Assembly (NCBI RefSeq): GCF_026344005.1
Contig: NZ_JAPKNH010000011.1
Coordinates: forward strand, 62,001 to 126,000
Direction of reading: 5' to 3'
Length of the DNA: 64,000 nt
From: Kaistia terrae
GTDB taxonomy: Bacteria; Pseudomonadota; Alphaproteobacteria; Rhizobiales; Kaistiaceae
Below the pieces are notes generated by a model. That model was given only the letters and a program-made list of their open reading frames with translations. It was not told the origin of the DNA and did not search any database. Below, piece by piece: positions 3,046 to 14,448 of the stretch (its first letter is position 1; each line of letters starts with the position of its first letter). The position numbers and the translations under genes were made by a program.

Positions 3046-4059
3046 ATCATCCGCGCCCTCCTGACCCTGTTGCGATGGACCGGACGACTGGTCCTCTGGC
3101 TGGTGATCGCGCTGACCGCGACGCTGGTCGGCATGGCGTTCTGGTACCAGCTGCCGCTGCCGCCAATCGTGCTGAAGATTGCCATCGGCGCCTGGGCCAT
3201 CTTCGCGCTCGGCGTACTTTTCCTTGAGATAACAAGGCGTTCGTGGATCGTTCGCGGCGTCTATGCGCTGGCGCTGATCGCCGCTCTCGTCTGGTGGGCG
3301 AGCATAAAACCGAACTTTGATCACGAATGGGCGCCCGATGTCGCTCATATCGTCACCGGCACCCGCGACGGCGATATCGTCACCTTGGAGAACGTCCGCA
3401 ACTTCGACTGGCGGACGGAAACCGACTTCACGCCGCGCTGGGAAACCCGCGCCTACGACCTCTCGAAGGTGGAGAGCGTCGACCTGTTCCTGTCCTATTG
3501 GGCCGGGCCTGCGATTGCCCACACGCTGGTTTCCTTCGGCTTCGAAGGCGGCGAACATGTTGTTTTCTCAGCGGAAATCCGCAAGGAGAAGGGCGAGAGC
3601 TTCTCGTCGATCGGCGGCTTCTTCAAGGAGTTCGACCTGGCGCTGATCGCCGCCGACGAGCGCGACATCATCCGTTTGCGGACCAATATCCGTGGCGAGG
3701 ATGTCTATCGCTACCGGATCGAGATGCCGAAGGCGGGGATGCAGGCGCTGTTTCTCTCCTATCTCGAGACAGGAAACCACCTGGCGAAGGTCCCGACCTT
3801 CTACAATACCGTCACCGCCAATTGCACGACCGTGGTTTTCAAGCTTTTGCGCGCGCTCGACCCGGCGCTGCCGTTCGATTATCGCATCCTGCTTTCGGGC
3901 TATCTTCCCGGATATATCTATCAAAATCAGGGCTTTACCACTGGCCTGAGCGAGGCCGAATTCCGGCGTCGCGCCGCCATCAGCGCGCTTGGAATCGCCG
4001 CAGGAGACAGCCCAAACTTCTCCGAAGCCATCCGGGTTAACAGCCCCCCGCTCCGTTAA
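3046..4059 (+). CDS. DUF4105-domain membrane protein, probably AUC-started
   Basis: About 337 aa. Three hydrophobic segments occupy roughly the first 85 residues, followed by a large soluble domain matching DUF4105 (PF13387). Conserved blocks seen are DLFLSYWAGPAIAHTLVSFGF, with a family His, and YNTVTANCTTVVFKLL, with a Cys expected to be catalytic in a papain-like fold. Function is unproven; Bacteroidetes Lnb lipoprotein N-acyltransferases use a related domain. The start is unusual. GGAGG at 3036-3040 sits five bases before ATC at 3046, giving a start MIRALLTLLRW, whereas the first standard start in frame is a TTG at 3070 with no ribosome site. The gene lies between coaBC and dut, which are often adjacent in relatives. 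Confidence 0.75.
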   Translation: MIRALLTLLRWTGRLVLWLVIALTATLVGMAFWYQLPLPPIVLKIAIGAWAIFALGVLFLEITRRSWIVRGVYALALIAALVWWASIKPNFDHEWAPDVAHIVTGTRDGDIVTLENVRNFDWRTETDFTPRWETRAYDLSKVESVDLFLSYWAGPAIAHTLVSFGFEGGEHVVFSAEIRKEKGESFSSIGGFFKEFDLALIAADERDIIRLRTNIRGEDVYRYRIEMPKAGMQALFLSYLETGNHLAKVPTFYNTVTANCTTVVFKLLRALDPALPFDYRILLSGYLPGYIYQNQGFTTGLSEAEFRRRAAISALGIAAGDSPNFSEAIRVNSPPLR

Positions 4060-4081
4060 CACCCCGTTAGCCCATCGTTAA
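4056..4081 (+). promoter_or_regulatory. Candidate CtrA-type boxes upstream of dut
   Basis: TTAA at 4056, TTAG at 4067 and TTAA at 4078 are spaced exactly 11 bp apart, giving two overlapping near-matches to the alphaproteobacterial CtrA consensus TTAA-N7-TTAA. A further TTAA lies at 4037. They sit 17-42 bp before the dut start, where a promoter is expected. The site is inferred from the pattern only. Confidence 0.3.
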
Positions 4082-4097
4082 GCATGAGGACATTTCC

Positions 4098-4574
4098 GTG
4101 CCGCACCAGCCGACCATCGAACTGAAGGTGCTCGATCCCCGCCTGGAAGCCTGGGGAATGCCCGCCTATCAGAGCGACATGGCGGCGGCGATCGACCTGC
4201 GCGCCGCGCTCGACGCGCCCGTCTCGATCGAGGCCGGATCGCCGGCCATCCTGATCCCGAGCGGGCTCTCCCTCTTCATCCGCGACCCGTTCGTCGCCGC
4301 GATGATCCTTCCCCGCTCCGGCCTCGGTCACAAGACGGGTCTCGTGCTCGGCAATTCGACCGGGCTGATCGACGCCGACTATCTCGGGCCGATCCTCGTC
4401 AGCGTCTGGAACCGCAACGCATCCGGCACGCCGCCGATCGAAATCCAGCCCGGCGACCGAATCGCCCAGATGATGTTCGTGCCGGTGGTGCGGCCGCGCT
4501 TCGAGGTGGTCACGGAATTTTCCGCCGAGACTTCGCGCGGCGCCGGCGGCTTCGGCTCGACCGGCGGCAAATAG
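4098..4574 (+). CDS. dut: dUTPase (deoxyuridine 5'-triphosphate nucleotidohydrolase)
   Basis: 158-aa trimeric dUTPase that hydrolyses dUTP to dUMP and pyrophosphate, keeping uracil out of DNA and supplying thymidylate synthesis. All five motifs are present: AIDLRA (31-36), PRSGLG (72-77), GLIDADY (89-95), PGDRIAQM (118-125) and the glycine-rich [10 protein letters not shown] (147-156). The start is a GTG; no in-frame ATG lies just upstream. It follows the DUF4105 gene by 38 bp and precedes cysK by 70 bp. The upstream TTAA repeats could couple it to the cell cycle. Confidence 0.96.
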
Positions 4575-4644
4575 CGAGGCTCGACCCGGCCGACCGGCTG
4601 GACTAGGCTTTCGACACAAGACAAACGGGTTGAGGAGACGAAGA

Positions 4645-5610
<966 letters not shown>

Positions 5611-5628
5611 GGCTGAGGGCTTTCCCCA

Positions 5629-5650
5629 CCTCTCCCGCGCGCGGGAGAGG
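5629..5650. repeat. Family A palindrome
   Basis: A perfect 22-bp palindrome, CCTCTCCCGCG followed by its reverse complement, 18 bp after the cysK stop. It is followed by TTTTGCTGAGG and may also help end cysK transcription. Confidence 0.75.
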
Positions 5651-5675
5651 GTTTTGCTGAGGGGTATCCCTCAGA

Positions 5676-5816
5676 GCCCGATCAAAACGCCTCAGCCGTG
5701 GGACAGGTGAGAGGCGCACTGCATCCGGCGTCATCCCCGCGAAGGCGGGGATCCATGCAGCTTCCCAAGGCACTCGGCTGAATGGATCCCGGGTCAAGCC
5801 CGGGATGACGGCGAGT
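5676..5816 (+). repeat. Direct duplication, copy 1 (141 bp)
   Basis: Starts at GCCCGATCAAAACGCC and ends at GATGACGGCGAGT. The same 141 bp recurs at 5831-5971, offset by 155 bp, with one difference seen (CAGCCGTGGG here, CAGCCATGGG there). It includes a complete family C hairpin element at 5730-5809. Confidence 0.92.
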
Positions 5817-5830
5817 ATGGTTGTCCAAGG

Positions 5831-5971
5831 GCCCGATCAAAACGCCTCAGCCATGGGACAGGTGAGAGGCGCACTGCATCCGGCGTCATCCCCGCGAAGG
5901 CGGGGATCCATGCAGCTTCCCAAGGCACTCGGCTGAATGGATCCCGGGTCAAGCCCGGGATGACGGCGAGT
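5831..5971 (+). repeat. Direct duplication, copy 2 (141 bp)
   Basis: Second copy of the 5676-5816 segment, separated from the first by 14 bp. The enclosed family C element is at 5885-5964. Near-identity suggests a recent tandem duplication. Confidence 0.92.
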
Positions 5972-5999
5972 TGGAGAATTCGGGCGAGGCTCGTCCTGC

Positions 6000-6037
6000 C
6001 CCCTCGCCCGCTTGCGGGAGAGGGCTGGGGTGAGGGG
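6000..6037. repeat. Family A half element
   Basis: CCCTCGCCCGCTTGCGGGAG followed by AGGGCTGGGGTGAGGGG. It is the right-hand half of the paired family A element found complete at 18161, 43086, 44213 and 49140. Confidence 0.75.
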
Positions 6038-6071
6038 CTTTTCTTTCGGGCTGCCCCGCCCACCCCGTCCT

Positions 6072-6178
6072 CAACATCCTGAGGTGCCGGCGAAGCCGGC
6101 CTCGAAGGACGCAGGGGGCCGTGCAAGCCAGGTCGCCTTGCGTGCTTCGAGACGGCCCTTCGGGCCTCCTCAGCATGT
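6072..6178. repeat. Family D inverted-repeat element
   Basis: Outer ends CAACATCCTGAGG and CCTCAGCATGT are nearly inverted. Inner segments CCTCGAAGGACG and CGTGCTTCGAG are also roughly inverted, as in the element at 14449-14577. Confidence 0.7.
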
Positions 6179-6230
6179 CGAGAACCGACCACCTCATCAC
6201 GGAGTTGCCCCCTCGGCACCCAACTCCCCC

Positions 6231-6337
6231 GTCATCCCGGCGGAAACGGGGATCCAGACACGCCGTCGCCGGGCGAGATGCCTGTGCGTCGATTTCCCTG
6301 GCCTGAGCTTATGGGCCCCGGCCTTCGCCGGGGCGAC
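6231..6337. repeat. Degenerate family C element
   Basis: The left arm is GTCATCCCGGCGGAAACGGG and the right arm is a GGCCCCGGCCTTCGCCGGGG stretch. Relative to the copy at 26660 both arms have diverged. Confidence 0.55.
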
Positions 6338-6356
6338 AAGCAGGCACGCCCCCCAA

Positions 6357-6390
6357 ACAAAAAAGGGGCCGGCGCGAACGCCGGCCCCTT
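6357..6390 (-). terminator. Rho-independent terminator of the SDR gene
   Basis: On the minus strand a 12-bp stem (6379-6390 with 6363-6374) closes a CGAA/TTCG tetraloop and is followed by a run of Ts (A-rich 6357-6364 on +). It lies 18 bp after the SDR stop. Confidence 0.9.
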
Positions 6391-6407
6391 CGATGGAAAA
6401 GAAAAAC

Positions 6408-7169
6408 TCAGACCCAGCCGCCGTCGACGACGTAGCTCTGGTTGGTGCAGCCGGAGGCTTCTTCGGAGGCGAAGAACAGCACCGGCTTGGCGATGTCGTC
6501 CGGGAACAGCTTGCGCTTCAGGCACTGCTTGGCCATCAGATCGGCTTCGGCTTCCGGCGTCAGCCAGAGGTCGATCTGGCGCTGGGTCATGATCCAGCCG
6601 GGGACGACGCAGCAGACGCGGATGTTGAACGGGCCGAGATCGCGCGCCAGGCCACGGGTAAGGCCCTGCACGGCGGATTTGGCCGAGGTGTAGGCCGGCA
6701 TGCCGCCCTGGCCGATCATCCAGGATGTCGAGCCCATGTTGATGATGGCGCCGCCGCCGGCTGCCTTCATGTCCTCGGCAACGGCCTGGGCCGCGAAGAA
6801 CTGGTGGCGGATGTTGACCTGGTAGCGCTCGTCCCAATATTCGGGCGTCACGTCTTCCAGCTTGTGGCGCTGGTCGTGCGCGGCGTTGTTGACCAGGATC
6901 GTGATCGGCCCGAGCGCTTCACGCACATTGGCGATCGACTGGCGCAAAGCTGCGATATCGCGCAGGTCGCACTTTTCGAAGTGCACGGTGCCGGTGGCGG
7001 AAAGCTCTTTTACGAGCGCTTCGGAAGCTTCGGCGTTGATGTCGAGGAAGCCGACTTTCGAGCCCTGGGCGACGAAGTGGCGAACAATGGCTTCGCCGAT
7101 TCCGCTGCCGCCGCCGGTGATGAGCACGGTCCGGCCCTTGAGGCTCGGATAAATGGCGCCGCTGGTCAT
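6408..7169 (-). CDS. SDR-family dehydrogenase, sugar 1-dehydrogenase-like
   Basis: 253-aa short-chain dehydrogenase. It has the NAD(P)-binding TGGGSGIG (18-25), NNAA (94-97) and the catalytic triad S147, Y160 and K164 in GSTS and YTSAK. The start SGAIYPSLKGRTVLITGGGS and the block HKLEDVTPEYWDERYQVNIRH closely recall Caulobacter D-xylose 1-dehydrogenase as remembered, so a pentose or hexose substrate oxidised to its lactone is the best guess. It stands alone with its own terminator; no sugar pathway genes are nearby. The accessory, low-GC ParB-like gene diverges from it upstream. Confidence 0.85.
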   Translation of the reverse strand: MTSGAIYPSLKGRTVLITGGGSGIGEAIVRHFVAQGSKVGFLDINAEASEALVKELSATGTVHFEKCDLRDIAALRQSIANVREALGPITILVNNAAHDQRHKLEDVTPEYWDERYQVNIRHQFFAAQAVAEDMKAAGGGAIINMGSTSWMIGQGGMPAYTSAKSAVQGLTRGLARDLGPFNIRVCCVVPGWIMTQRQIDLWLTPEAEADLMAKQCLKRKLFPDDIAKPVLFFASEEASGCTNQSYVVDGGWV

Positions 7170-7477
7170 GAGTGTTTCCGTCCCTGAAACGATGTCTCTT
7201 CGCCGGCAGGGCCGGCCCGCGCCTGTTTTAGGCCAAACCGGGAAGGAGAGGAATCAAAATTTGAGGGGCGCACGTCAGAGGGGGAAAGACCCGGAGCACT
7301 GGCTGTTGCTCGCGACGGTCGTTCCACAATCGCGGCGAAGATGCCGACGACGCTGCTGCCCAGCTAAGCGGCGTTGCCAACGCCACAACCATGCAGAAAT
7401 TCCCAACGGTAAGGTTGCATGAACAGATAGACTCTGGCGTATCTATACTAGTTAAACTTGCGACCGGGGGCTCGCAC
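7170..7477. other. Divergent intergenic region between SDR and ParB-like genes
   Basis: 308 bp with no credible gene. It should hold the SDR promoter and that of the low-GC gene. A possible -10 hexamer TATACT lies at 7444-7449, but no well-spaced -35 was found. GGGGG at 7466-7470 is the likely ribosome site of the downstream gene. Base composition falls towards the right end. Confidence 0.5.
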
Positions 7478-8791
7478 ATGGCATTTCGCTCACTGCCACT
7501 TTCGCTACTCATAGTAAACAAGGCGAATGATCGTCACGGCGAACTCGAAAATGAAACTGCCGCGATCGGATGGCTGTTCAGCAACCGCGAACTGCATATG
7601 AGGAATTTAGCCAAGGACATCGTCGCGGAGGGCGGGATATACGACGCTCCGCTAGTCACCCCCAACGGCGAAGAATACCTGGTATTCGACGGAAACCGTC
7701 GCGTGACCTGCATGAAGCTCATTGCAAGGCCCAATCGCTCGCCGACAATTGAGCTCCAGCGCTTTTTCATCGAACTTCGAGAGCAATGGGAAGGCGAGTT
7801 TCCCAGTCGCATTACGTGCCAAGTTGAAAGCAACCGGGATCGGATCGATGACATACTTTATCGACGGCACACCGGCACCCAGAATGGAGTTGGCCAGAGT
7901 ACTTGGGACGACCGTATGAAGTCGAACTTCGTTGAACGAACCGGCAAATCAAGCGGTCTTCATATTGCGGACGAAGTGGAGAAACGGTTGGTTGGCGCTA
8001 GCCTATGGGATAGTAAGCGGAAAATACCACGTTCTAACATGAACCGCTTGCTATCGTCCGAGGCCTACAGAAACCGCGTTGGGTTCAGCATCTCGCGCGG
8101 CAATTTTGAATTCACTCACAACGAAACTGCCTCACTCAAGGCATTGTTTAAAATCGCAGACGATCTCACAAGCAAATCAGTCGTTTTGAACGACATCTGG
8201 GACGTATCCGCGAAGCGACAATATCTAGATCGGTTGGATCGCGAAGGCGTATTGCCTACCGCAGCAGACGTTTTGACACCCCCGTCAATGCCACCGAGCA
8301 AGCCCCTAGCGATATCACAGCCAAAGCCATTCTCAGCGCCCAAGACACAGCCGAGGATCACGCTGATACCCAACGACGTCGAATACCCTCTGACATGGTC
8401 CGGAGAACAGCAACGACTCAAGGCGATATGGGACGAACTTGCATGCAATTTAGAGCTCTCCAAGCACCCTAACGCCATAGCGGTAATGTTCCGGGTTCTG
8501 GTTGAGCTTGCAGTGGATAGCTACATCCGAAGCATGAACCTGTCGGAGGTTCACGAGAATGACAAGTTGTCCAATCGCGTGTTAAAAGTTGCGGCGGATA
8601 TGAACGCGAGGAAAAAAATCGATAAACGATACTATGATGAGTGTAAAAAGCTAAACAATTCAGATCAATTACTATCAATGGCAACGATGAATAGCTGGGT
8701 TCATTCGCCAAGATTTAATCCGTCACCGCAACACATGATATCAATGTGGGGTTCCTTATCGACTTTCATCGTTGAATGCATAAACGCGTAG
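7478..8791 (+). CDS. Orphan protein with ParB/sulfiredoxin-like N-domain and helical C-domain
   Basis: 437 aa, not assigned to a characterised family. Residues about 1-130 look like a ParB/Srx fold: LPLSLLIVNKANDRHGELEN, then YLVFDGNRRVTCMKLI, where GNRR (72-75) stands at the place of the ParB GERR motif. HTGTQNGVGQSTWDDRMKS (131-149) resembles a block following this domain in other ParB-like proteins. A proline-rich linker (about 266-293) joins a helical domain (about 300-437) containing AVMFRVLVELAVDSYI and NSWVHSPRFNPSPQHM. Base use is strikingly AT-rich: 17 of 60 bases at 8621-8680 are G or C, against well over 60% around it. The ATG at 7478 follows GGGGG by seven bases. No partner gene is adjacent. 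Probably acquired by transfer; a defence or DNA-transaction role is only a guess. Confidence 0.7.
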   Translation: MAFRSLPLSLLIVNKANDRHGELENETAAIGWLFSNRELHMRNLAKDIVAEGGIYDAPLVTPNGEEYLVFDGNRRVTCMKLIARPNRSPTIELQRFFIELREQWEGEFPSRITCQVESNRDRIDDILYRRHTGTQNGVGQSTWDDRMKSNFVERTGKSSGLHIADEVEKRLVGASLWDSKRKIPRSNMNRLLSSEAYRNRVGFSISRGNFEFTHNETASLKALFKIADDLTSKSVVLNDIWDVSAKRQYLDRLDREGVLPTAADVLTPPSMPPSKPLAISQPKPFSAPKTQPRITLIPNDVEYPLTWSGEQQRLKAIWDELACNLELSKHPNAIAVMFRVLVELAVDSYIRSMNLSEVHENDKLSNRVLKVAADMNARKKIDKRYYDECKKLNNSDQLLSMATMNSWVHSPRFNPSPQHMISMWGSLSTFIVECINA

Positions 8792-8880
8792 CGATCGAGC
8801 TGAGATAACACTCTCGGAGTGCCGCCGCAGGCTCTTGTCGTGATCCCTGGTTGGATTCCTCCTTACTCACGAACAGTTAG

Positions 8881-8999
8881 CGCGTCCTCATCACCTTCGT
8901 CGTCGCATCTGACGGCGTGTTCGCCCTCGCCGACGCCATGACGACGGTGGCGCTCGCCATCTCGACGCTGATCGTCAAATCGACGCAGGGCGACGCGCG
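8881..8999 (+). pseudogene. Remnant of a cation diffusion facilitator gene
   Basis: About 40 codons (RVLITFVVASDGVFALADAM then TTVALAISTLIVKS) match residues 10-67 of the intact transporter at 10832-11758. A 21-bp stretch at 8886-8906 is identical to 10867-10887. The fragment lacks a net 48 bp plus one GCC codon relative to the intact gene, both multiples of three. A TAG stands just upstream at 8878-8880. It lies between the orphan low-GC gene and the channel gene, in the same orientation as the intact copy. Confidence 0.8.
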
Positions 9000-9004
9000 C
9001 TGCC

Positions 9005-9442
9005 TCAGCCGTGCCTGCCGCGCGGCCATCTCGCGATGGCGTTCTGGACAGCGGCGATGAAGATCGCCGTGCTGATGCCAAACATCATCAAGCCATTGGC
9101 AGCCTGCATCGGCGCAAGCAGCCGCATGCGGCCGCTCAGCACGACATCGCCATAACCGAGCGACGTGAAGGTCACACCGGAAAAATACCACGCCGTTTCA
9201 AAGTTTTCGAAGGCGCCGAGCGCGATATAGAGCAGCGCCCAAAAGGCGATCTGGACGAAATTGCCAAGCATCAGCACGGTCATCAGGATCGAGAATTGCA
9301 GAAAAATCGCCCGCCACGGCTTCGGGCCCAGCGGTCGCGTTCCGGCCCGCGCGAAGTAGCGCACCGCGACCATCGATGCGTAGGCCTGGAGCACAAGGCA
9401 TCCCAATATCGCCAACAGGCCGAGAGCCAGGATTACGATCAC
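9005..9442 (-). CDS. Two-helix potassium-channel-like membrane protein
   Basis: 145 aa. A hydrophobic N-terminal helix (about 2-25), a second membrane helix (about 47-76), a pore loop with the selectivity-filter sequence TSLGYGDV (93-100) and a last helix (about 115-133) fit an ion-channel pore domain (Ion_trans_2 type). The expected filter is TVGYGD, so the GYGD core is intact. No cytoplasmic ligand-sensing domain is attached. Its start overlaps the end of the upstream AI-2E gene by four bases, so translation is probably coupled. Potassium or other monovalent cation passage is inferred from the filter only. Confidence 0.8.
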   Translation of the reverse strand: MIVILALGLLAILGCLVLQAYASMVAVRYFARAGTRPLGPKPWRAIFLQFSILMTVLMLGNFVQIAFWALLYIALGAFENFETAWYFSGVTFTSLGYGDVVLSGRMRLLAPMQAANGLMMFGISTAIFIAAVQNAIARWPRGRHG

Positions 9443-10545
9443 GGTAGTGGTTCATCCCCCCGCTGGCCGTTGCCGACCGGGCGCTGGCGCAGCCATTCCA
9501 TCAGCAGCACATAGGCGACAGCCAGAAGCACCGGCCCGACAAACAGGCCGAGAAGACCATCGGCAAGCACACCTCCAATGACGCCGATCAGGATCACCGG
9601 CATCGGCACTTCCAGCCCGCGACCCAGCAGCAGGGGCTTCAGCGCATTATCGCTGAGGCCCATGACGAGGCTCCAGATCGTGAAGAGGACGGCCGGCGTC
9701 GTGGCTTCGGTCAGGAAGACGTAGGCGATGACAGGCAGCGTCAAGAGCGTCACCGGCACCTGCACGATGCCCAGCAGGAGGGCGACAAGCGTCAAAAGAC
9801 CGGCCGCCGATAGACCGATGGCGAAGAAGCCGATCCCGACCAGCAGGGCCTGGATCACCGCGACGCCGATGACGCCGAGGGCCACGCCCCGGATCGTGGC
9901 GACCGTCAGCGTCGCGAGGTGCGCCCCTCGCTCCCGGCTACCGGTGACACGCTGCAACAGGCGCAGGGCGAAATTGGCGGCGCCCTTGCCATAGGCGACG
10001 AGCACAGCGGCGATGCCGACGGAAACGACGAATGACAATTCGCCGGCGGCGAGATCGCGAGCGAACGACAGCAGCCACGCCGTGAACCCGCTTAGCGCCG
10101 AGCGATATTTGGCAAGTGCTGCCGGCAGATTGGTGGCGACGAGCGCCCAGATCTCGGTCAGCTTCGCGCCCACCACCGGGATGTCGGCAAGCCGGGGCGG
10201 CGGCGGCGGCACGGTCAGGTCGTTGTTCTGCAGGCCCGAGACAAGCGAATAGAGCGAAGACCCGAGCGACGTCACCACGACGACCATCGGCACCAGCGTC
10301 AAGGTGACGCCGACCACGCCGATCAGCAGCGCCGATCCGCGATTTCCGAGAGGAACGGCCAGACGGCGATGCAGCGGATACAGCATCACGCCAAGGATAA
10401 CCGACCAGAGCAGAATGGCGGTAAAGGGCAGCAGGATGCGGACGCAGACATAAACCAGAAGGGCCGCCAGCCCGAGCTGGAGCGCCGTATCGAGCAGGTT
10501 GGAGCGCGGCGGCGCGTAGCCAGCCTCTGGCGCATCCTGATCCAT
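9439..10545 (-). CDS. AI-2E family transporter (PF01594)
   Basis: Polytopic membrane protein of about 368 aa with at least seven hydrophobic segments. The C-terminal part NALKPLLLGRGLEVPMPVIL then IGVIGGVLADGLLGLFVGPV is the hallmark of the AI-2E/PerM family. Family members export signals or act in Na+(Li+)/H+ antiport; substrate cannot be read here. I chose the ATG at 10545 (MDQDAPEAGYAPPRSN), preceded by AGAGGG; an ATG at 10566 and one at 10671 are in frame. The downstream channel gene overlaps by four bases, suggesting a two-gene ion-homeostasis operon. Confidence 0.85.
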   Translation of the reverse strand: MDQDAPEAGYAPPRSNLLDTALQLGLAALLVYVCVRILLPFTAILLWSVILGVMLYPLHRRLAVPLGNRGSALLIGVVGVTLTLVPMVVVVTSLGSSLYSLVSGLQNNDLTVPPPPPRLADIPVVGAKLTEIWALVATNLPAALAKYRSALSGFTAWLLSFARDLAAGELSFVVSVGIAAVLVAYGKGAANFALRLLQRVTGSRERGAHLATLTVATIRGVALGVIGVAVIQALLVGIGFFAIGLSAAGLLTLVALLLGIVQVPVTLLTLPVIAYVFLTEATTPAVLFTIWSLVMGLSDNALKPLLLGRGLEVPMPVILIGVIGGVLADGLLGLFVGPVLLAVAYVLLMEWLRQRPVGNGQRGDEPLP

Positions 10546-10724
10546 CCGCTTGCCCTCTGCTTCCATCTCTTGCAGCAGTTTTCGCGACGCGCCCGGTCCG
10601 TCCCAACAGCATATCACAAATGACATCTTCCCCTGCGTAAGTTTGCGGGATGAGCGGGGTATGGGGTGCATCGACCGACCGGCGCCGCTAGAGCGAGATC
10701 CATCTTCTTTGAAGCGCCATTCCT

Positions 10725-10747
10725 CACCTCTCCCTGAGGGAGAGGTG
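10725..10747. repeat. Family B palindrome
   Basis: CACCTCTCCCT facing AGGGAGAGGTG around a single base, 85 bp before the cation-efflux gene. It is the simplest copy of family B, in the divergent region between the AI-2E and CDF genes. Confidence 0.75.
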
Positions 10748-10831
10748 AAAAGTCGGATTCTACCCAGGTGCTTCTTGCTCTAAAGTCCGGCGACCGGCGC
10801 ATTCGGGCGGCCGGAGGGTGAGGAAAGAATA

Positions 10832-11758
10832 TTGCTGACCGAACAGGGCGTCCTTCGCGCGTCGATCCTCATCACCTTCGTCGTCGCGGCGTTCGGCATC
10901 GTTTTCGGGCTGCTTTCGGGCTCGTTCTCCATCGCCTTCGACGGTGTGTTCGCGCTGGCCGACGCCGCCATGACGACCGTGGCGCTGGGCGTTTCGGCGC
11001 TGATCGTCAAATCGGCGCAGAGCGACGCGCTTTCAGGAAAACTGCGCAACCGCTTCACCATGGGCTTCTGGCATCTGGAGCCGATGGTTCTGGGGCTGAA
11101 CGGCACCATTTTGATCATGGTTGCCATCTATGCGCTGATCAACGCCATCCTCTCGATCCAGGGCGGCGGCCGCGAACTGGAATTCGGCTATGCCATCCTC
11201 TATGCCGCGACGACGCTGGTCGTCTGCCTCGGCATGGCGTTTTTCGACTGGCGCGCGAACCGGAAAATCGAGTCCGACTTTCTCAAACTGGACATCCATT
11301 CCTGGCTGATGTCCGGCGCGATCAGCGCGGCGCTGCTGATCGCCTTTCTCATCGGCTATGGCGTCGAGGGCACGCGATACGACTGGATGACGCCCTATAT
11401 CGACCCGGCCGTGCTGGCGATCATCAGCGTCGCCATCATCCCGATTCCGATCGGCACGGTGCGGCAGGCGGTGGCCGACATGCTGCTTCTGACGCCGGCC
11501 GACCTGAAGGAACATGTCGACCAGGTGGCGCGGGATACGGTCCAGCGGCATGGATTTCTCACCTATCGCGCCTATGTCGCCAAGGTGGGCCGCGCCAAGC
11601 AGATCGAGATCTATTTCATCGTCGCCCGCAACGGCGCGGCGCGGCGGCTGGAGGAATGGGACAAGATCCGCGACGAGATCGGCGAGGCCATCGGCGACGA
11701 GAGCTATAATCGCTGGCTGACCATCGCCTTCACCACCGACAGCGAATGGGCCGAATAG
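10832..11758 (+). CDS. Cation diffusion facilitator family transporter
   Basis: 308 aa with six hydrophobic segments and a cytoplasmic tail (from about 225) typical of CDF antiporters that export divalent metals in exchange for protons. Start TTG at 10832 follows GAGGAAAG. The four ligands of the FieF transport site appear only half kept: by eye, D37 and H156 align with the first Asp and the His, but A41 and M160 replace the second and fourth Asp. HLEP (81-84) stands where GHxKxE is usual. Metal specificity is therefore unclear. A decayed partial copy lies at 8881-8999. Confidence 0.85.
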   Translation: MLTEQGVLRASILITFVVAAFGIVFGLLSGSFSIAFDGVFALADAAMTTVALGVSALIVKSAQSDALSGKLRNRFTMGFWHLEPMVLGLNGTILIMVAIYALINAILSIQGGGRELEFGYAILYAATTLVVCLGMAFFDWRANRKIESDFLKLDIHSWLMSGAISAALLIAFLIGYGVEGTRYDWMTPYIDPAVLAIISVAIIPIPIGTVRQAVADMLLLTPADLKEHVDQVARDTVQRHGFLTYRAYVAKVGRAKQIEIYFIVARNGAARRLEEWDKIRDEIGEAIGDESYNRWLTIAFTTDSEWAE

Positions 11759-11872
11759 CTTTTCTCCCTAATTTTTCCCGCGGCTGTCGATTCCGGCCGG
11801 GCTCGTTCGTTGAGGAGTGGAGGCGCGGCTGTTTTGGCCGGCGCCAGCGCGAACCAGCAAGGGGATGAGAAA

Positions 11873-12586
11873 ATGCCTCATGACCAGATCGTCCAGCCGG
11901 GAGACCTTGTCCCGGCAGCGGAAATGGCCGCGCGGAACACCGGCCGGGTTCTGAACGAAAGCGACGAGTATCGCCGCGCGCGCCAGGCGCTCCTGGCGGA
12001 AGAGATCGAGTTGCGTCGCCATATCGAGCGGGTGGCCGAGTTGCGGCGTCACCTGCCGCCGGGCGGCGTCGTTGCGAAGAACTATGCGTTTGAAAGCGAA
12101 ATGGGGCCGGTCGATTTCGCCAGCCTGTTCGGCGATCACCAGACCTTGGTCGTCTACAGCTACATGTATGGCCCGCAGCGCAAGCGGCCCTGCCCGATGT
12201 GCACCTCGATGATGAGCGCCTGGGACGGCGAGGCGCGCGATGTCGAGCAACGCGTGGCCCTGGCGATGATCGCCCGCTCGCCGATCGAGCGGCTGTGGGC
12301 GTTCAAGCAGGAGCGCGGCTGGAAGGCGCTAAAGCTCTATTCTGACGTCAGCGGCGATTTTACCCGCGATTATGTGAGCGCCGAGGATGCCGATATTCCG
12401 GCCCTCAACGTGTTCACCCGGCGCGACGGCGTCATCCGGCATTTCTGGGGCGACGAGATGGGCGAGACCGCCGATCCCGGCCAGGACCCGCGCGGCGCGC
12501 CGGACCCGATGCCGCTCTGGACCATCCTTGACCTGACGCCGGAAGGCCGCGGCACCGATTGGTATCCGAGCCTCGAATATCGCTGA
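11873..12586 (+). CDS. DUF899 family thioredoxin-like protein
   Basis: 237 aa. The N-terminal helical region (RRARQALLAEEIELRRHIER) leads to YAFESEMGPVDFASLFG, HQTLVVYSYMYG and the cysteine pair in RPCPMCTSMMSAWDG, all typical of DUF899 proteins, which adopt a thioredoxin-like fold. The C-terminal GTDWYPSLEY is also characteristic. Enzymatic function is unknown; redox chemistry is suggested by CPMC. The ATG at 11873 is preceded by AAGGGGATGAGAAA. It is followed 43 bp later by a YciI-family gene and the two may be co-transcribed. Confidence 0.88.
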   Translation: MPHDQIVQPGDLVPAAEMAARNTGRVLNESDEYRRARQALLAEEIELRRHIERVAELRRHLPPGGVVAKNYAFESEMGPVDFASLFGDHQTLVVYSYMYGPQRKRPCPMCTSMMSAWDGEARDVEQRVALAMIARSPIERLWAFKQERGWKALKLYSDVSGDFTRDYVSAEDADIPALNVFTRRDGVIRHFWGDEMGETADPGQDPRGAPDPMPLWTILDLTPEGRGTDWYPSLEYR

Positions 12587-12629
12587 GGCCGGGCCTCACC
12601 CTACCCGCGCGCAAGAACGGAGATTTCCG

Positions 12630-13049
12630 ATGCAGTTTGCCTGCCTGGTCTATGTCGACGGCGACGCGATGGCGGCGCTTTCGAAGGAAGAGCAAGCCCG
12701 GCTCACCGACGAGACGATCGTCCAGGATTGGGCCCTGCGCCAGGCGGGCCGGCTGATCCTGGCGCGGCCGCTGCAAGCGCCGGAGAGCGCCGCCGTCGTG
12801 CGCGTGCGCGCGGGGCACGCCAACGTCACCGACGGCCCCTTCTCCGAGGCCAAGGAGATTCTCGGCGGCTTCCTGATCATCGAGGCGGACGACAGGGAGG
12901 CGGCGATCGCGGTGGCGAAGGCGTCGCCGATGGCGCGGATGGGCAGCATCGAGGTCCGGCCGATCCTCGACCAGACGCACAGCGTGACGGGCGAAGGGCG
13001 GCCACCCGCCCTTTCGCGCGCGGTCGATCAGCCGTCGACCCGCTCATAG
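12630..13049 (+). CDS. YciI-family (YCII/DGPF domain) protein
   Basis: 139 aa. The ferredoxin-like YCII domain spans about residues 1-112, with VTDGPFSEAKEILGGF matching the DGPF motif that gives the family its name and a final GSIEVRPIL. Such proteins often sit beside ECF sigma factors; none is present here. The last 25 or so residues (from THSVTGEG) go beyond the usual domain end, and the final 22 bp overlap the 3' end of deoA on the other strand, so the stop may have been acquired by read-through. Function is unknown. Confidence 0.88.
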   Translation: MQFACLVYVDGDAMAALSKEEQARLTDETIVQDWALRQAGRLILARPLQAPESAAVVRVRAGHANVTDGPFSEAKEILGGFLIIEADDREAAIAVAKASPMARMGSIEVRPILDQTHSVTGEGRPPALSRAVDQPSTRS

Positions 13050-14338
13050 ACCGTCGCGGCGGGCTCCGGCTTGTCACCGAGGCGATAGGCGGCGCGCAGA
13101 AGTTCGCTGACACGGTCGGCATCCGCGTCTGACCTGGCGTGGATGCGGGCGAGCGGCGTGTTCGCGTCGAGGCGCGTGCCGAGGCCGGCCAGGTGAGAAA
13201 AGCCGACGGAAAGGTCGATCGGGTCGCTGGCGACACGACGGCCGCCGCCAAGCTCGATCACGGAGATGCCGACGGCGCGGGTGTCGATCGCCGAAACATG
13301 GCCCTCGCCTTCCGCCAGCACGTCGCGGACCACGGTAGCCTTCGGCAAATAGTCATCGACGCGCTCGACGAAATCCGTGGGGCCGCCGAGCCCCGCCACC
13401 ATGCGTCCAAACACCTCCGCCGCGCGGCCGGAGGTAATCGCCGTCTCGATGCGGTCACGCGCGGCGGAAACGCCATCGGCTCGGCCGGCGGTGATCAGCA
13501 TCTCGGCGCCGAGCGCCACGGTGATCTCATGCAGGCGTGCATCTCTCGCGGCGTCCGTCAGGTAGTGGACGGCGTTTCTCACCTCGAGCGCATTGCCGGC
13601 GGCGGACGCAAGCGGCTCGTTCATGTCGGTGATCAGGGCCGTGGTGCGGACACCGGCGCCATTCGCCACCTCGACCAGGCTTTTTGCCAGCGCGCGAGCG
13701 TCAGCGTGGCTGGCCATGAAGGCGCCAGTGCCGGTCTTGACGTCGAGGACGAGGCCCTGCAGCCCGGCGGCGAGCTTTTTCGACAGGATAGAGGCCGTGA
13801 TCAGCGGGATCGATTCGACCGTCGCGGTGACGTCGCGGATGGCGTAGAGGCGCTTGTCGGCCGGCGCGAGATCGGCGGTCTGGCCGATGACGGCGGTGCC
13901 GCAATCCCTCACCACCTGGCGGAACAGATCGAGGTCGGGCTGGCTCTTGTAGCCGGGGATGGCGTCGAACTTGTCCAGCGTGCCGCCGGTATGGCCGAGA
14001 CCACGACCGGAAATCATCGGCACATAGACACCGCATGCGGCAACGGCCGGGGCCAGCATCAACGAGACATTGTCTCCGACGCCGCCGGTCGAATGCTTGT
14101 CGACAACGGGGCCATCGAGATGCGACCAGTCCAGCACCGAGCCGGAATCACGCATGGCGAGCGTCAGCGCCACCGCCTCGTCGCGGCTCATGCCGCGAAA
14201 GAAGATCGCCATGGCGAAGGCGGCGACCTGCCCCTCCGAGACGGCGCCGGAGGTCAGCCCCTCGACCATGAAGCGGATCGCGTCCGAGGGCAGAACCTCG
14301 CCCTCGCGCTTGGCGCGGATGATTTCCTGCGGCAGCAT
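13028..14338 (-). CDS. deoA: Thymidine phosphorylase
   Basis: 436 aa, standard length. It converts thymidine and phosphate to thymine and 2-deoxyribose 1-phosphate. Visible marks are the N-terminal helical domain (LPQEIIRAKREGEVLPSDAI), the signature block DKHSTGGVGDNVSL, GRGLGHTGGTLDKFDAIPG, and VLDVKTGTGAFM for phosphate binding. Start MLPQEIIRAK at 14338 fits family lengths and follows GGGAGG by 12 bases. It is last in the nucleoside uptake and salvage series. It is separated from punA by a 351-bp repeat-rich gap, so it may be expressed less than the upstream genes. Confidence 0.95.
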   Translation of the reverse strand: MLPQEIIRAKREGEVLPSDAIRFMVEGLTSGAVSEGQVAAFAMAIFFRGMSRDEAVALTLAMRDSGSVLDWSHLDGPVVDKHSTGGVGDNVSLMLAPAVAACGVYVPMISGRGLGHTGGTLDKFDAIPGYKSQPDLDLFRQVVRDCGTAVIGQTADLAPADKRLYAIRDVTATVESIPLITASILSKKLAAGLQGLVLDVKTGTGAFMASHADARALAKSLVEVANGAGVRTTALITDMNEPLASAAGNALEVRNAVHYLTDAARDARLHEITVALGAEMLITAGRADGVSAARDRIETAITSGRAAEVFGRMVAGLGGPTDFVERVDDYLPKATVVRDVLAEGEGHVSAIDTRAVGISVIELGGGRRVASDPIDLSVGFSHLAGLGTRLDANTPLARIHARSDADADRVSELLRAAYRLGDKPEPAATVYERVDG

Positions 14339-14448
14339 TTTTTTGGCACGCCTCCCAAGCGTAGTCCGAGTTCGACCCGGCTTCTTCCAACCGGATCGCA
14401 CTATACCTCACCTCTCCCCTCGGAGAGACCTTTGCAAAGCCCCGCCCT

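Follow-up and report, generated by a model that had tools for sequence, protein, structure and literature searches.

PD-lambda-5 is the described anti-phage system closest to the gene considered here. A functional selection in E. coli brought it to light; it altered plating or plaque size for 9 of 10 phages, and its discoverers interpreted it as combining restriction-modification with abortive infection in a compact form (Vassallo et al. 2022, PMC9519451). In the paired form its A component adjoins PD-Lambda-5_B, a D12 adenine methylase. The window analysed here, the whole stretch of 64,000 nucleotides from contig NZ_JAPKNH010000011.1 of Kaistia terrae, carries a gene for an A component, and no PD-Lambda-5_B lies beside it anywhere in these 64 kb. 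The gene is real, foreign and of a defence family: it is a methylase-free variant of PD-Lambda-5_A. No description of a methylase-free branch was found in the accessible parts of the library literature on PD-lambda-5.

7478..8791, + strand: PD-Lambda-5_A-like gene, 437 amino acids plus stop, by match to PADLOC PDLC03998, start from homologue alignment

The family assignment comes from PADLOC model PDLC03998 (PD-Lambda-5_A), which the protein matches at E 3.4e-76, with residues 1-433 of 437 on model positions 1-462 of 466; all 25 PADLOC models that it matches bear the name PD-Lambda-5_A. Pfam and NCBIfam give no match above cut-off for the 437-residue protein. In PHROGs it matches phrog_9592 (function unknown), and the A proteins from a Kosakonia plasmid and a Burkholderia replicon likewise have their best match there; in both of these (L069, L070) a DNA adenine methylase that PADLOC names PD-Lambda-5_B lies directly after A. 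A PDB sequence search with the alignment returned three weak matches (best E 0.45), taken as chance. The first-pass annotation, made from the letters alone, placed the C-terminal domain in no nameable family, which does not hold: the whole protein matches PD-Lambda-5_A and the C-terminal domain has a HEPN-like fold. It also held that a confident whole-protein match to a characterised family would overturn its proposal of a one-gene defence function; such a match exists, and the family matched is itself a defence family.

The protein has two folded domains. An AlphaFold2 model built from 25 solo sequences (A proteins without a nearby B gene) has a mean predicted local distance difference test score (pLDDT) of 84.5 and a predicted template-modelling score of 0.44. 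The domains, and the residues discussed below, lie as follows.

7478..7948, + strand: ParB/Srx NTPase-fold domain, about residues 1-157, by AlphaFold2 model and PDB comparison
7688..7702, + strand: DGNRR, residues 71-75, ParB box II or P motif (GxxR), by conservation in the alignment
7862..7876, + strand: RRHTG, residues 129-133, including H131, by conservation in the alignment
8282..8344, + strand: low-confidence linker, residues 269-289, pLDDT below 50
8396..8788, + strand: HEPN-like fold, residues 307-437, by domain model (pLDDT 91.9) and best PDB rows, which are HEPN proteins
8702..8704, + strand: His409, the only kept HEPN-motif residue, by alignment

The N-terminal domain (model residues 2-138) finds its best fold match in ParB with a cytidine triphosphate analogue (7bnr_A; Z 10.3, root-mean-square deviation 2.0 over 95 residues), which bears out the ParB/Srx-like domain of the first-pass annotation. 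The motifs it had singled out, FDGNRRVTCMKL and HTGTQNGVGQSTWD, occur as written, and their core residues are kept across the family: G72, N73, R75 and H131 stand in all 33 solo and all 16 A-B rows of the alignment. The ParB/Srx superfamily is thus represented both by its fold and by its GxxR P motif, here GNRR, with G72 and R75 in 49 of 49 rows. The helix-turn-helix (HTH) and C-terminal dimerisation domains of canonical ParB give no Pfam match above cut-off; the C-terminal domain is HEPN-like instead.

For that C-terminal domain, the last 145 residues were modelled alone and compared with the 210 chains ranked highest by Foldseek. The best match is 4nqf_A (Z 8.3, root-mean-square deviation 3.5 over 120 residues), and with 17 further HEPN or HEPN-like structures it makes up the 18 best rows listed, giving the domain the fold of the HEPN superfamily; Z falls to 4.8 at rank 21. 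The assignment rests on this consistent ranking of rows and on the VIA Z values. Nine rows are identified by title, and seven (5yep, 1ylm, 6m6w, 6m6u, 7bxo, 1jog and 1wty) we take to be HEPN-like structures. The remaining two, 2q00 and 1wwp, are identified by a survey of HEPN proteins (PMC3710099). All 33 solo rows have His409, as do 11 of the 16 A-B rows; at position 404, the Arg place of Rx4H, 29 of the solo rows hold Leu and 4 hold Met. No solo row departs from R339 or E343, which are found in 10 and 14 of the 16 A-B rows, respectively.

The absence of the methylase extends beyond the window, since the B model PDLC04018 has no match in the host genome (G000, 99% complete). Searched against 47 genomes or records, this model gives some match in 18. 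It reaches E 1.6e-82 or lower in eight (W01, W02, G121, G156, G321, G360, G368 and G409), all among the 15 other than the host and the close-homologue genomes; seven of the 31 close-homologue genomes have a weak match, the best at 3.9e-21. At the level of loci, B is near none of the 41 A genes whose proteins are at least about 35% identical to that of the window (the window gene itself, L004-L034, L068, L071, L074, L150, L154, L155, L157, L164 and L171). It is near 20 of the 26 distant loci where tblastn, queried with the window A or the Kosakonia A, finds A; the six without it are L073, L175, L184, L211, L212 and L215. The line between solo and distant, about 35% identity to the window protein, was set after inspection, and a gene counts as near if it lies in the sequence read around the locus, at most 10 kb per side and less at contig ends. 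B is the next gene in most B loci and about 1.7 kb off in L173; in L204, B is present and A appears only as a profile match at a contig end.

In a tree of 49 proteins, a 100/100 branch parts the 33 solo rows from 15 A-B rows. The tree leaves out broken, truncated or split A proteins (L024, L027, L028, L029, L030, L032, L074 and L150), the very divergent L173, L175, L177, L180, L183 and L184, and the long-branched L182; L178, L179 and L181 have no tree row (no tblastn A match), L204-L216 were fetched after the tree, and L151 and L152 duplicate L023 and L033 and are counted once. Because the solo rows are nested among A-B rows when the tree is midpoint-rooted, a rooting that is unproven, a single loss of B is suggested. 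An earlier tree that included L182 (branch 8.9) needed two changes for the solo group, not one.

Of the 31 close-homologue records, 30 carry names that we take to be alphaproteobacterial and one is named only Proteobacteria; the scan that gave them used window-protein patterns and could reach close relatives only. In all 25 loci measured (of the 31), the guanine-cytosine (GC) content of solo A is below that of the surrounding DNA, with a median difference of 0.13. Broken, split, insertion sequence (IS)-interrupted or remnant solo A genes occur in Alphaproteobacteria (L024, L029, L030, L032, L074, L150 and L202). Eight of ten phage or plasmid matches were read (H9 and H10 left out). A Vibrio phage (L073:1-3284) carries a PD-Lambda-5_A gene with a convergent HNH restriction-like gene, B being absent from the 7.6 kb read, and a 4.5-kb unverified record from human faeces, named Bacteriophage sp. 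(L071), carries a solo A gene with 56% identity.

The gene is compositionally foreign to its surroundings. Its GC content is 0.503 against 0.647 window-wide, exactly 17 of the bases at 8621-8680 are G or C, and of 313 blocks of 900 bp, taken from the window and from 11 arbitrarily chosen stretches of 20 kb in congeners, the only one below GC 0.54 lies inside it. GC at third codon positions (GC3) is 0.574 against a mean of 0.82 (standard deviation 0.06) in 42 other open reading frames (ORFs) of at least 200 residues, chosen by a mechanical rule that favours high GC3; the codon score lies 6.9 standard deviations away from ORFs with GC3 above 0.7. The AT-rich outlier with different codon use that the first-pass annotation described is therefore confirmed, as is its lack of an operon partner, the adjoining genes giving none on the same strand. 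The ORF 7478-8788 is unbroken and codes for the 437-residue protein. The mechanical ORF begins earlier, at 7391; a Met at position 7478 is aligned in 23 of 24 homologues, with start points taken from tblastn matches, and this supports 7478 as the start. Same-locus homologues of native GC in relatives, set beforehand as the second finding that would overturn the first-pass proposal, were sought in 13 congeners, and none carries the gene. It is present in 2 of 61 genomes: its own and, split in two pieces, one other of the same order.

The site itself is variable. Its parts, and the corresponding genes of three congeners, are listed here.

7285..8884, no strand: foreign low-GC segment, from the stop of congener homology on the left to efflux-gene similarity on the right
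6408..7169, - strand: left flank, native SDR gene conserved in congeners, by congener comparison
8885..8998, + strand: right flank, diverged and incomplete copy of the 5' portion of the cation-efflux gene at 10832
L147:2043-3023: low-GC gene at the SDR edge in G003, AbiGi (weak)
L148:10956-11939: low-GC gene at the SDR edge in G011, NOV_C
L149:2101-3384: low-GC gene at the SDR edge in G012, phrog_34659

The homology of five congeners to the left flank ends at 7279-7284, just upstream of the SDR gene, which is divergent from the gene of interest. On the right the partial copy is identical at 22 of 22 positions (8885-8906) and 83% identical over 8903-8998; this cation-efflux fragment is followed by an opposite-strand ion-channel gene. 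Insertion of the gene at the SDR edge is inferred from composition and from its absence in congeners, because congeners differ over the entire interval between the SDR and efflux genes (2.8 to about 8 kb) and none of those read shows a clean empty site. Direct repeats of at least 11 bp shared by both edges of the low-GC segment were not found, and promoter and terminator scans gave about the same site counts as in shuffles. The ten genes around (3070-14401) have ordinary Pfam domains, e.g. dUTPase, PALP, SDR, ion channel, AI-2E transporter and cation efflux. Repeats of about 100 bp, with many matches in the host's own and congeneric genomes, lie at 5719-6342 and 10679-10794.

A low-GC single gene stands at the SDR edge in 4 of 12 genus genomes examined (G007 and G013 left out), the window genome included. 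The other three (GC 0.48, 0.51 and 0.53 in G003, G011 and G012) are different genes: the first has a sub-threshold AbiGi match (E 0.0025), the second a NOV_C domain above cut-off (E 9.4e-13) and is defence-like, and the third a match to phage family phrog_34659 (function unknown, E 9e-66). The SDR edge is possibly a small hotspot of defence-type genes.

The best reading of these results is that the gene encodes a horizontally acquired anti-phage protein, the PD-lambda-5 A component of a methylase-free branch known so far in Alphaproteobacteria; this is moderately probable. It builds on the family match, the two-domain fold, the absent B, the foreign composition and the variable site, all seen directly in the sequence and the models. 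The one-gene defence function put forward in the first-pass annotation is made plausible by the PD-Lambda-5_A match and by the low-GC edge genes of congeners; the function itself we infer.

Several observations weigh against this reading. The E. coli PD-lambda-5 includes a methyltransferase, and A alone may therefore do nothing; an experimental test of the solo branch was not found in the literature. The catalytic HEPN motif Rx4-6H is incomplete, with His409 present and the motif Arg absent in 33 of 33 solo rows, for a helical bundle a Z of about 8 is only moderate, and the Foldseek values for the isolated C-terminal domain are weak (best E 0.57). Several solo copies are broken (L024, L029, L030, L032, L074 and L150), as expected of a dispensable gene. 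None of the ten neighbouring genes has a phage- or integrase-like Pfam domain, and PD-Lambda-5 is described in one study as often prophage-borne (PMC10482375); a second gives only 2 of 8 (PMC12824646). A scan of IMG/VR with the solo alignment gave 16 pattern matches, none confirmed as a relative. Finally, B is near only 21 of the 39 distant places read, which were reached by A profiles or tblastn and include weak profile matches, and G321, a genome with an A-B pair elsewhere, has a further A-like gene that lacks B (L211). Of the 18 B-less distant places, most align with an A profile along a short segment and may represent different ParB-fold proteins; twelve have no tblastn A match (L178, L179, L181, L205-L210, L213, L214 and L216). 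The 21 of 39 makes the contrast between solo and distant loci less clean; the 0 of 41 is unchanged.

If the gene is such a defence protein, its ParB/Srx domain may bind a nucleoside triphosphate (NTP) through GNRR, perhaps together with DNA, because a change of the P-motif Arg abolished NTP binding in other ParB-fold proteins, as one source reports (PMC12704722). This domain would work as an infection-sensing switch. Driven by it, the HEPN-like domain, with its His kept and its Arg lost, might act on nucleic acid itself; alternatively, in loci that encode an active HEPN RNase, it might partner with this enzyme and regulate it. The result would be an arrest of phage growth, probably abortive. 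Since B is missing, self would not be spared through a cognate mark, and the trigger is therefore more likely an infection cue than unmethylated DNA.

The neighbours of close homologues, which the first-pass annotation had suggested searching for defence genes, bear on this choice. At least one HEPN-like, GIY-YIG or DUF3644-like gene adjoins A in 15 of the 31 close loci: HEPN_Cthe2314-like genes (whole, partial or remnant) in 12, GIY-YIG genes in 9 and PDC-S64/DUF3644-like genes in 3. The other 16, including the nearest relative L004, have none, although two of these loci (L027 and L028) end just after A. RNxRxH is intact in all nine HEPN neighbours aligned (a set without the incomplete or disrupted copies of L013, L014 and L030), and the DUF3644-like neighbours keep RN[AS][IV]QH in 3 of 3. 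The GIY-YIG neighbours match MUG113 and T5orf172, which we take to be GIY-YIG models, above the Pfam cut-offs. Among 385 genomes of the class, HEPN occurs in one and GIY-YIG in two, always less than 1 kb from solo A, and on plasmids HEPN is found in two records, by an A split by an IS5-like element and by a 32-residue A remnant. In the window genome neither partner was found.

One explanation of this pattern is that A is not the effector but senses infection and keeps a separate toxin in check: through its HEPN-like domain, which lacks the Arg, it would pair with the adjoining active HEPN RNase and free it on infection, the window copy being an orphan without its toxin. The intact motifs of the neighbours and their closeness to solo A, even where A is split or reduced to a remnant, speak for it. 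The 16 loci without such a neighbour do not, nor does the orientation of the partners, which lie on the strand opposite to A in 12 of 15 loci (same-strand only in L020, L023 and L026). Three GIY-YIG homologues (40-43% identity) are on plasmids where the A search found nothing, so that GIY-YIG is not exclusive to A; the HEPN assignment, at 23.0 and 25.7 bits, stays under the Pfam cut-off of 27.1, and the evidence for DUF3644 is weak (E 2.5e-9 with PADLOC PDC-S64, E 0.0076 with DUF3644). As an account of the window gene it is unlikely. A wider proposal, possible and advanced tentatively, is a distinct alphaproteobacterial system in which PD-lambda-5 lost its methylase once and took up a GIY-YIG nuclease as well as HEPN RNases that can replace one another (Cthe_2314-like or DUF3644-like); A, in which a ParB NTPase is joined to an Arg-less HEPN, would be the arming sensor, and stand-alone copies, the window's among them, would work by themselves or depend on a toxin supplied in trans.

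A modification-dependent (type IV-like) factor that attacks modified phage DNA by a GmrSD-like logic is quite improbable. GmrSD (DUF262-DUF1524) resembles the window protein in joining a ParB/Srx-related domain to a second domain in a defence protein; it differs in a DGQQR-type motif and an HNH-like nuclease, as given in its description (PMC10952713), and neither is found in the window protein. Pfam shows no DUF1524/HNH domain of the type IV enzymes, Pfam and NCBIfam no HNH or other DNase domain in A, and HEPN domains are known mainly as RNases (PMC3710099).

Restriction of DNA lacking host CcrM (GANTC) methylation, with this housekeeping methylase replacing B as the self mark, is very unlikely. 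A CcrM homologue (E 1e-147 or lower) is present in 37 of 38 solo genomes, the miss being a 67%-complete genome, compared with 7 of 10 A-B genomes and 161 of 230 of the class sample, and the host copy matches solved CcrM 6pbd at E 2.4e-161. The count does not discriminate, because 16 of the 20 CcrM-less genomes listed for the class (49 more stand outside this listing) are 2.4 Mb or less, and solo genomes are mostly larger. Genome counts thus give the CcrM self mark no support beyond this confounding with genome size, and A has no known nuclease active site. Besides CcrM, the host genome has a second N6/N4 methylase match, in a 608-residue frame (G000:C37:117459-118328). Least credible is that the protein is an orphan of the ParB type that regulates transcription or replicon maintenance and has no defence role, for although the N-terminal domain is ParB-like and ParB folds are found joined to many partner domains (PMC12704722), Pfam finds no ParB HTH or dimerisation domain, none of the ten neighbouring genes scanned has a ParA-like Pfam domain, and the gene is a patchy, low-GC member of a defence family.

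The chief interest of the window gene is that it leads to the solo branch and to the HEPN and GIY-YIG neighbours found there, which are candidate effectors. An A-only branch allows one to ask what A senses and how the host is spared without a cognate mark. The SDR edge, with its various low-GC single genes and no integrase recognised, could be mined for defence genes in the genus.

Among known proteins, the Saro_3948 type likewise fuses ParB-like and HEPN domains in one protein, and the MAE_28990 HEPN shares operons with genes for ParB and a methylase (Anantharaman et al. 2013, PMC3710099). The ParB plus HEPN architecture is not new as such, because the Saro_3948 fusion is already listed there. 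That type is listed as mostly active (PMC3710099); a search by tag did not find its sequence. Plasmid pNL2 of the same species, which may or may not carry Saro_3948, has no solo-A match among the plasmid-collection matches. The Parep1/8 HEPN family also keeps the His without a conserved motif Arg, and its structure 2q00 is the second row of the C-terminal fold comparison (Z 8.2, tied with the first). In the accessible part of the source, Parep1/8 is listed as archaeal with no ParB domain mentioned, and other basic residues are proposed as substitutes for the motif Arg (PMC3710099).

PD-lambda-5 itself stays the nearest system: the window A protein matches PD-Lambda-5_A end to end, and GNRR, H131, W143, R190 and E343 are common to at least 14 of 16 A-B rows. 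The window gene differs in having no B methylase, either adjoining or elsewhere in the genome, and in its DGNRR, where Glu replaces that Asp in 14 of 16 A-B rows. No phage genes are among its ten scanned neighbours, and about half of the solo branch carries other neighbours, HEPN-like or GIY-YIG.
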